A stretch of DNA of 61,872 bases from Tissierellales bacterium (GTDB taxonomy: Bacteria; Bacillota; Clostridia; Tissierellales; JAOAQY01): positions 1 to 61,872 of the forward strand of contig JAOAQY010000213.1 of the NCBI GenBank assembly GCA_025210965.1. Direction: 5' to 3'. The notes beneath the pieces are model-generated. The model made no database searches. It worked only from the letters and a program-made list of their open reading frames with translations, and was not told the DNA's origin. A program made the position numbers and the translations under genes. This document shows, one piece after another, positions 30,510 through 32,571 of the stretch (position 1 is its first letter; every line of letters begins with the position of its first letter).

Positions 30510-30521
30510 ATACTGTAATAG

Positions 30522-30566
30522 AAGAGGCTGATTGATCAATATTTATTTTGAAGCAGCCTCTTTTTA
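30522..30566 (+). terminator. htrA terminator
   Basis: AAGAGGCTG pairs with CAGCCTCTT across a 23-base loop region and is followed by TTTATTATTTT. Confidence 0.8.
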
Positions 30567-30650
30567 TTATTTTAATTTATCATCTATGCTATAATGGGTA
30601 TATCCATAATACAGAGTGTTTGAGTATATAACGCACAAAGGAGTTTTGAT

Positions 30651-31652
30651 ATGGCTATAGATCCTAAAATAATAAACATGTACAATAATTTAATAGATGA
30701 AATAAGTATATTTGTAAAATCTGATCAAAATCTTTCGTTTGATTTAAATTCAAAGTTGACCGTAAACGATTATATTACTATTGATAAACGAATTAATCGA
30801 AATGCTGTCATAAAAACTGATCCTATAGATTTGCTTTATAAAAATGAAATTAAAGAAACTAAAAAAACGTTTGAAAATGTCAAAAATGGTCAATCATTAG
30901 ATATTTCTTCGATTGAATCATTTATAGATACTGCGCTTCCGGATATTACTGGAAATAACAATATTTTATCTAGAATTAGACAATTAAAAGAAGACGACGA
31001 TTATACTTATAGACACTCTTTAAACGTCTCAATACTAGCTACTAATATTGGCAAGTGGCTCGGTTATTCAGCTAAGCAATTAAAAGAACTTGGCACGGCC
31101 GCACTTCTTTTTGACATTGGCAAATTGACTATACCATCTGAAATTTTAAATAGACCTCACAAAGTTACATCTAAGGAATCAAAAATTATACAACAACATA
31201 CTGTGACAGGCTACAATATGTTAAAGCTATTAAACTTACCAGATAGCATACTATTAGCTGTACTTCAGCATCATGAGAATATGGACGGCTCGGGATATCC
31301 GCTAGGTGTCTCTGGCGACAAAATTCATGAGTTTGCAAAAATCATACATATATGTGATATGTATGATGCTATGACTACTGACCGCATCTACGCTCCTAAA
31401 AAATCGCCTTTTGAAGTTGCTGATTTAATTAGGATAGAAAGTGGTTCTAAACTTGATCCAGGTATAGCGTATATCTTTTTGAATAATATCGCTGAATTCT
31501 ACTCTGGTTCAAAAGTAATACTAAATAACGGGCAAACTGGTACTATAAGACATATTAATCCTTTAAATCCAACATCTATTACGCTTCAAATAGGTGAGAA
31601 ATTTTTAGATTTGAGTAAGTCACCACAATTAAAAATTGTTGATTTCATCTAA
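30651..31652 (+). CDS. HD-GYP domain protein with altered HD motif
   Basis: The protein resembles cyclic-di-GMP phosphodiesterases of the HD-GYP class in its second half: histidine 122 (YRHSLNVSILA), FDIGKLTIP at residues 154-162, QQH (183), LQHHENMDGSGYP (206-217) and the later CDMYDAMTTDR. In the canonical motif HDxGK the first histidine ligates metal; here residue 154 is phenylalanine (codon TTT), while aspartate 155 and lysine 158 remain. Activity may thus be lost or changed. The N-terminal 100 residues are helical and unrecognised. A TATAAT box lies at 30590-30595, without a clear -35. Confidence 0.85.
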   Translation: MAIDPKIINMYNNLIDEISIFVKSDQNLSFDLNSKLTVNDYITIDKRINRNAVIKTDPIDLLYKNEIKETKKTFENVKNGQSLDISSIESFIDTALPDITGNNNILSRIRQLKEDDDYTYRHSLNVSILATNIGKWLGYSAKQLKELGTAALLFDIGKLTIPSEILNRPHKVTSKESKIIQQHTVTGYNMLKLLNLPDSILLAVLQHHENMDGSGYPLGVSGDKIHEFAKIIHICDMYDAMTTDRIYAPKKSPFEVADLIRIESGSKLDPGIAYIFLNNIAEFYSGSKVILNNGQTGTIRHINPLNPTSITLQIGEKFLDLSKSPQLKIVDFI

Positions 31653-31691
31653 AAAAGTACAATTAGCAATCTCGCTAATTGTACTTTTTTT
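31652..31691. terminator. Bidirectional terminator between the HD-GYP and DUF4380-like genes
   Basis: AAGTACAATTAGC pairs with GCTAATTGTACTT around AATCTC; T runs on both strands serve the convergent genes. Confidence 0.9.
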
Positions 31692-32571
31692 AAATTTCAT
31701 CTACATAATCTATCCATCTATCTATTCTATCAAATGTTTTTTTAAACCATTCCCAAACTTCACTATATTCAAAACTAGACTTTGAAGCTAAATTTTCAAG
31801 TGGCGATAATGTCTCTAGTTCTAATATTTCTCTTCTAGTAAAGCACTCAACGTTGCATCCACTATCTGGGTATGTTTTGTTTTCAAATTCAAAACGCTTC
31901 ACAAAACTATAATCTTCAAATCTATACCCAACCCAATTTCGATTGCTCATTACTCCTAATTTAAATGCATTGTTATCATCTGGTATACTTTGTATTTCTA
32001 CGTGATTCTCTCCCCAATGCAGTCTCTTGTCATTTGGCCTTGAATATTTCCAAAGTAGCAACTTGTTATTTGGTGCATATCCTGTATCATCATCATTTAA
32101 GGGGATTATAACCCTACCTCTAGGTCTCATCATAGATATCGGCCATATCGAAACTTCTATTGGCCATAAATGATCATTATACAATGTGTGACTTATTTTA
32201 AATTTTCGATTGGATAATTCTTCTATTTTTATTGTCTTTTTCAATCTATTTTGAACGTCTAAATCCTGAAATAGTTTGATATACTTGTCTCCGAACTCAT
32301 AACTTATTCTCTGATTATCAGGCTGATATGTTCTAGGATACGACTCTGGACTATGCCAGAATCTATGACCACCTTTTAAACAAAATTCTCCCGCTTCTGT
32401 TTCAAATTTTTCAAGTTCAGGCGATATGTCATCACAAAATAAATTGTTCATCTCGTCACCAAACCAAATTATCCTAAGACCACACTCAATAGTTACTATT
32501 ATTGTCGTCTCAGAATTCTTTATTTTGATGCATTTGCCCCATTTTGGGTGATTAATTTCATTTGAAATCAT
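31690..32571 (-). CDS. DUF4380-like protein, probably galactose-mutarotase fold
   Basis: The 293-residue protein is rich in beta strands. It contains GLRIIWFG, CLKGGHRFWHSPESYPRTYQPDN at residues 64-86, EVSIWPISMMRPRGRVIIPL and LELETLSPL, which I associate with DUF4380 proteins, a group with a mutarotase-like (sugar-binding) fold. No reaction is established. It begins four bases after the fbp stop, so it is co-transcribed with fructose-bisphosphatase, which makes a role in sugar metabolism plausible. There is no signal peptide. Confidence 0.7.
   Translation of the reverse strand: MISNEINHPKWGKCIKIKNSETTIIVTIECGLRIIWFGDEMNNLFCDDISPELEKFETEAGEFCLKGGHRFWHSPESYPRTYQPDNQRISYEFGDKYIKLFQDLDVQNRLKKTIKIEELSNRKFKISHTLYNDHLWPIEVSIWPISMMRPRGRVIIPLNDDDTGYAPNNKLLLWKYSRPNDKRLHWGENHVEIQSIPDDNNAFKLGVMSNRNWVGYRFEDYSFVKRFEFENKTYPDSGCNVECFTRREILELETLSPLENLASKSSFEYSEVWEWFKKTFDRIDRWIDYVDEI

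Follow-up and report, generated by a model that had tools for sequence, protein, structure and literature searches.

The gene at positions 30651 to 31652 of the window (the whole 61,872-nucleotide stretch of DNA analysed here) encodes a true HD-GYP protein whose HD pair has phenylalanine for histidine, and this protein belongs to a clade of 26 proteins, here termed [FY]D-GYP, in which the position is always phenylalanine or tyrosine. On the evidence of the sequences, the aromatic residue is one inherited ancestral change and a kept trait. The clade is proposed to bind c-di-GMP over an incomplete metal centre and to cut it poorly or not at all, acting as a receptor, a reading to which we give about an even chance.

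The HD_5 (PF13487) match of the window protein reached 118.4 bits against a cut-off of 27.2, and TIGR00277 (NCBIfam, HDIG domain-containing metalloprotein) was matched at 36.7 bits, above its curated cut-off of 27.6, despite F154. The latter cut-off was missed by a paralogue on contig C86 of the same genome (25.2 bits) and by a related protein of genome G570 (18.7 bits). Where HD-GYP proteins have HDxGK, the window protein has FDIGK (F154-D155-I-G-K158), and the HD pair is not intact. The original prediction had placed FDIGK at residue 154 with the codon TTT, which was confirmed after the residue numbering had been checked. It had also listed H122, D155, H183, H207/H208 and the GYP loop as kept, and this was borne out by alignment with the phosphodiesterase PmGH; D236 and K158, which it had omitted, are kept as well. 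The features of the coding sequence, placed by this alignment except where another basis is given, are as follows:

30651..31652, + strand: coding sequence of the [FY]D-GYP protein P0001, 333 aa (ORF and HD_5 match)
31014..31016, + strand: H122, metal ligand equivalent to PmGH H189, kept
31110..31112, + strand: F154 (codon TTT), replacing the HD histidine, PmGH H221 (PmGH alignment and sequence)
31113..31115, + strand: D155, metal ligand equivalent to PmGH D222, kept
31122..31124, + strand: K158, equivalent to PmGH K225, kept
31197..31199, + strand: H183, metal ligand equivalent to PmGH H250, kept
31269..31274, + strand: H207-H208, metal ligands equivalent to PmGH H276 and H277, kept
31293..31301, + strand: GYP loop, residues 215-217, kept
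31356..31358, + strand: D236, metal ligand equivalent to PmGH D305, kept
31383..31394, + strand: R245-xx-A248, guanine-contact motif Rxx(K/R) without its second residue

All six remaining ligands of H...HD...H...HH...D, the motif that passages of a review give for HD-GYP proteins (PMC8177086), are thus present, and GYP sits between the double histidine and the last aspartate, as membership of the family requires. Residue 209, next to H207-H208, is glutamate (E209, numbering checked). Further PmGH equivalents are Y118 for E185, D116 for D183, R245 for R314 and A248 for K317, the last two belonging to Rxx(K/R), which is described as a guanine-contact motif in the part of the source used (PMC10882959). 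With Y118-T119-Y120, the window protein falls into the Y/F subgroup of Bellini et al., for which the passages used expect a dinuclear centre when tyrosine or phenylalanine stands at PmGH E185 in clusters such as Y-T-Y or F-T-F (PMC4159591). It lies outside their trinuclear E/D-T-G subgroup, having Y118 and no glutamate or aspartate at the E185 position.

The clade was delimited in an alignment of 66 ORFs from chosen loci that matched the window protein with phmmer at E 1e-45. Residue 154 was phenylalanine in 20 rows, tyrosine in six, histidine in 39 and isoleucine in one, encoded by TTT (15), TTC (5), TAT (5), TAC (1), CAT (32), CAC (7) and ATA (1); the mixed codons for F and Y suggest that the aromatic side chain is held while the codon drifts. 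When column 154 was omitted, a maximum-likelihood tree placed exactly the 26 F/Y rows on one side of a branch (99/94), which was recovered in 100% of 200 bootstrap trees, and none of 500 label shuffles scored as low. The branch stood at 100/98 in a tree from which the C86 paralogue and six other rows were left out. Within the clade, the window protein branches first, the C86 paralogue next (100/98 for the remaining 25) and then 24 proteins of family f98, the family of G570 (94/40, weak). The end branch of the window protein is long (1.17) and is the deepest of the clade, so that its placement on this side of the tree is firmer than its exact depth. The tree is unrooted; of its five outermost rows, four have H and the fifth has I, which makes a single change from histidine to an aromatic residue the shortest account. 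An earlier tree, built without the sister family f98, had joined the two FD proteins of the window's genome at 91/88 and was replaced by the 66-row trees.

According to the original prediction, histidine in the orthologues would point to a sequencing error at residue 154. Most of the wider relatives do have histidine, but its own clade has F or Y. Sequencing error as the cause of F154 was excluded, as the paralogue in the same genome has F, and 24 genomes of family f98 have F or Y, encoded by TTT, TTC, TAT or TAC. A change from histidine (CAT or CAC) to phenylalanine also takes two base changes, so that a single miscalled base is no explanation.

The genome of the window comprises 243 contigs (95.79% complete, 1.02% contamination), with the window on contig C213. 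All of its 21 HD_5 matches were read. The HD pair is present in 18, and one further protein shows HN; FD occurs in the remaining two, the window protein and the paralogue (G000:C86:24390-25283), whose sequences are 45% identical over 277 residues. Four of the 18 proteins with the HD pair depart elsewhere, one each with N236, GFP, GYM and M158. The genome also has 32 GGDEF, 11 EAL and 3 PilZ matches; together with the 18 HD-pair proteins, these counts suggest that c-di-GMP is probably made and that an extra non-cutting binder could be afforded. Adjoining the paralogue is a 472-aa ORF (L072:4445-5863, - strand), in which near-copies of NKMMTPEEIAALVEQE recur several times and for which Pfam gave only a weak match; we take these repeats to resemble the N-terminal peptide of flagellar switch proteins.

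In an even sample of 391 genomes, taken from a larger group of the class, the motif pattern with TTT for F, which misses TTC and TAY codons, was found at three places in two genomes (controls, 0): the window gene, the C86 paralogue and a gene of G570, which belongs to another order. Searched against 148 genomes of the order of G570, the G570 protein gave 25 matches at E 1e-70; the 14 in its own family f98 all have F or Y, and the six that were read (L140-L145) of the 11 outside f98 all have H. At E 1e-90, a single match was obtained in 24 of the 41 genomes of f98 and no match in the other 17. In the window's order, 30 of 249 genomes matched at E 1e-60, the window's own among them, and histidine is kept at all 29 loci read, one in each of the other 29 genomes. 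A clade profile applied to 398 genomes sampled from the phylum, with the best four candidates scored per genome, found only the window's genome at E 1e-90; the other genome searches scored the best five or eight. Since the genomes were sampled and few candidates were scored in each, further clade members may exist.

Beyond residue 154, the clade (n = 26) keeps H122, D155, H183, H207 and D236 in 26/26 members and H208 in 25/26, the exception being a glutamine in L155 (HQ), and all six ligands occur together in 25. D116, K158, D239, the GYP loop and Y118 are each present in 26/26. The 39 rows with histidine also have the six ligands (39/39), but hold D116 (30/39), K158 (36/39) and D239 (26/39), equivalent to PmGH D183, K225 and D308, less strictly than the clade. 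Rxx(K/R) at R245 is found in 21/26 clade members, with A248 in the window protein, and in 30/39 H rows, which are themselves of the Y/F type at the PmGH E185 position (38 Y, one F). dN/dS could be measured in seven of 13 clade pairs, the other six being saturated, and was 0.007-0.126, values that are rough because dS exceeded 1 in several pairs; among the H rows, four pairs had ratios of 0.013-0.109. By these ratios, close pairs of the sister proteins are under strong purifying selection, no close relative of the window protein itself having been found.

The window protein also differs from its sisters. The linker motif LTG[ED][GF][ND] is present in the 25 other clade members and in 0/39 H rows, and R125, Q185, R219 and M233 are found in 25/25 of these sisters; the window protein lacks the motif and all four residues. 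Residue 233, three before the ligand D236, is A or S in 39/39 H rows, M in the 25 sisters and H in the window protein. It was considered as a relocated ligand and rejected, as H or M also occurs at this position in 8 of the 100 proteins with H154 intact in a set of 113. Elsewhere in this 113-protein survey, L026 (I) and L043 (A) were the two single proteins that had lost the histidine and kept the six ligands.

Other departures were noted among the relatives. Nine mostly betaproteobacterial proteins (L057, L060-L063, L065, L066, L070 and L071) have MN for HD and keep the other five ligands. The loci L045-L054 (Aquitalea and Aeromonas) carry adjacent HD-GYP gene pairs, and at five Aeromonas loci (L048, L049 and L051-L053) one gene of the pair encodes HNIGL and its neighbour HDIGK. 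Three proteins of family f18 (L024, L113 and L117) keep the HD pair and have M for the lysine of HDxGK.

The original prediction had found no match for the N-terminal 100 residues. This holds for the first part, as residues 1-60 alone gave only 5 bits, whereas the second part matches a linker of the family:

30810..30983, + strand: residues 54-111, helical linker common to the family (hhalign 97.7%; helices in the model)

With hmmsearch, 53 bits were obtained over residues 7-111. Modelled with AlphaFold2, the window protein has a mean pLDDT of 83.1 and a pTM of 0.79, with residues 1-53 under 50. The model of the G570 protein (pLDDT 86.7, pTM 0.69) has an extra N-terminal module of about 60 residues that is absent from the window copy, and its residues 101-122, which include much of the LTGEGN linker, have a pLDDT below 50. 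PF11871 (DUF3391) scored 19.7 bits in the G570 protein, under its cut-off of 27.8, and the module was therefore left without a name. A hidden N-terminus 5' of the ATG of the window gene was considered and rejected: the frame is open for just nine codons (342 aa in total) and the preceding HtrA-like gene lies 141 bases away, so that the module appears to be absent rather than hidden. PDB structures were searched with the window model by Foldseek and VIA-align and with the G570 model by VIA-align; the fold matches of the window model include PA4781 (Z 19.9, rmsd 3.8 over 189 residues).

Three features flank the window gene:

30515..30570, + strand: hairpin with a T tract, between the HtrA-like gene and the [FY]D-GYP gene (fold -19.8 kcal/mol, z -4.7)
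30637..30643, + strand: AAAGGAG, Shine-Dalgarno-like, 7 bases 5' of the ATG (read from the sequence)
31651..31690, + strand: strong terminator-like hairpin with a T tract, between the [FY]D-GYP gene and its convergent neighbour (fold -20.2 kcal/mol, z -10.1)

The hairpins on both sides suggest that the [FY]D-GYP gene may be transcribed alone, and neither of them was listed by a consensus terminator scan. Its 5' neighbours are genes for a response regulator with Trans_reg_C, a HAMP histidine kinase and a trypsin/PDZ (HtrA-like) protease. An operon with this two-component pair and the protease was rejected, as the first hairpin parts the HtrA-like gene from the [FY]D-GYP gene. Genes for regulators and kinases that fall into the same groups as the window's pair occur close to the clade gene in a few of 21 f98 regions compared, but the grouping is loose (BLAST 1e-10, single linkage), so that no inference on linkage to the clade gene is drawn. 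On the 3' side, a convergent 293-aa ORF (31690-32571, - strand) has no Pfam match at E 0.001, and the gene beyond it is a Firmicute-type fructose-bisphosphatase (1033.6 bits); this gene and the nearest named contigs indicate Bacillota, probably Clostridia, as the source. In f98, the clade gene has a conserved setting: a gene that we take to encode a tyrosyl-tRNA synthetase is kept near it in 18 of the 21 regions, and an unnamed gene lies 3' of it in 19. The G570 copy of this downstream gene (L124:11732-12544, + strand) has no Pfam match at E 0.001. Both of these neighbours are absent from the two regions compared in the window's genome.

The original prediction had offered inactivity, a different metal arrangement or a role as a cyclic-di-GMP receptor as outcomes, and this interpretation is partly borne out. 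If the clade consists of c-di-GMP receptors, the domain would still fold round a partly filled metal centre, in which the metal next to the GYP loop (G-site) could stay while the metal nearest the HD histidine would be lost or weakened. Such a pocket would bind c-di-GMP and cleave it slowly or never, and the protein could serve as a c-di-GMP receptor or adapter beside the many ordinary HD-GYP enzymes of the genome. Having lost the N-terminal module and one guanine contact, the window copy may be a further specialised, perhaps weaker-binding version. Hydrolysis is likely to have been lost in the clade, since in PmGH alanine at H221 essentially abolished it, as did alanine at D183 or K225, according to passages of that study (PMC4159591). 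The natural proteins with a broken HD pair, PA2572, VC1087, VCA0895 and DvhD, which do not hydrolyse c-di-GMP in the accounts cited below, also count for the receptor reading. Against it counts the stricter retention of D116, K158 and D239 in the clade than in the H rows, which is expected of a working active site, as does the fact that DvhD also lost the double histidine and showed no metal in its structure, whereas the clade keeps the other ligands. The case for c-di-GMP binding is weaker for the window copy in particular, which has A248 where PmGH has the guanine-contacting K317.

The same retention counts for the main alternative, that the clade members remain active phosphodiesterases whose metal centre, mono- or dinuclear, has been rearranged, the aromatic ring reshaping the pocket and tuning rate, metal choice or substrate; we regard this as possible, if on the unlikely side. 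The six ligands kept in 25 of 26 members, the three strictly held residues and the low dN/dS in the seven clade pairs all fit such an enzyme. With Y118, the centre is expected to be dinuclear, so that the H-site may matter less, and the loss of H in trinuclear PmGH to A may not predict the effect of a change to F in this group; one lost residue is tolerated by VCA0681, which, in the passages used, is active despite the absence of the D308 that PmGH needs (PMC4212101). However, 39 of the 40 other aligned relatives keep the histidine and are themselves of the Y/F type, which suggests that it is needed there, and the H221A result and several characterised natural variants of the HD pair, inactive in the accounts available, speak against activity. 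It also seems rather doubtful that the [FY]D-GYP proteins form a subfamily with a working metal centre without the naming histidine, given to slow or altered-substrate chemistry or to ligand sensing at the vacated coordination position.

Function through protein partners alone, with a structural metal site and no cyclic nucleotide bound, is improbable: it would agree with A248 in the window copy and with PA2572, whose YN-GYP domain acts in the cell although its hydrolysis was undetectable in the account used (PMC3411652), but the clade keeps Rxx(K/R) in 21 members and the GYP loop in all. Finally, the window copy might be a decaying paralogue without a job, F154 itself having been inherited. 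Its long branch and the absence of the N-terminal module, the linker motif and the K317 equivalent would fit decay, but the ORF is intact, a ribosome site and a terminator-like hairpin are present and the six ligands and GYP are kept, which makes this most improbable. A clade that has shed one ligand while the others stayed nearly fixed offers a natural test of which of the sites binds the nucleotide and which cuts it. An HD_5 match far above the cut-off does not show a phosphodiesterase, and genome counts of c-di-GMP-degrading enzymes may wrongly include this clade.

Degenerate HD-GYP proteins with broken HD pairs are already on record, and the literature on them is drawn on here from excerpts and abstracts. 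The best PDB sequence match to the window protein is PmGH (PDB 4mcw, E 3.1e-25), an active trinuclear phosphodiesterase, and its structure fits the window model with Z 20.6 and rmsd 2.9 over 185 residues. Like PmGH, the window protein keeps the six ligands and the equivalents of D183, K225, GYP and R314; unlike it, F154 replaces H221, Y118 replaces E185, A248 replaces K317 and no GAF domain was found. In PmGH, H221 lies beside the H-site and Y285 beside the G-site, according to passages in which not all ligands are assigned to a site, and bound c-di-GMP was observed only in a subunit retaining just the G-site iron (PMC4159591). DvhD of Desulfovibrio vulgaris (PDB 9rbz; Z 21.2, rmsd 3.3 over 189 residues) shares a broken HD pair with the window protein; it has SQ for HD and is described as a non-hydrolysing c-di-GMP receptor that binds without metal, its structure being metal-free (PMC13090378). 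DvhD lost both halves of HD and the double histidine, whereas the window protein keeps D155, H207 and H208. The top fold match is Bd1817 (PDB 3tmb; Z 23.3, rmsd 3.4 over 223 residues), dinuclear and inactive on c-di-GMP, which has lost the GYP tyrosine and has N for the last D (PMC8177086).

For PA2572 of Pseudomonas aeruginosa, YN-GYP, read from the motif name, also implies an aromatic residue at the HD histidine; PA2572 differs from the window protein in lacking the aspartate as well and in carrying a receiver domain. In the reports as excerpted, no hydrolysis was seen for the V. cholerae proteins VC1087 and VCA0895, which have a broken HD pair (PMC4212101), and three Leptospira proteins in which the HD histidine is among the altered residues are predicted to be inactive (PMC12943098). 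No FD form of HD-GYP was named in the titles and abstract beginnings searched, and the literal term 'FD-GYP' matched no paper. What appears to set the [FY]D-GYP proteins apart from the known broken HD pairs, judged from the aligned members, is that a single ligand is replaced, that its replacement is always aromatic and clade-wide, and that the rest of the site is nearly constant.
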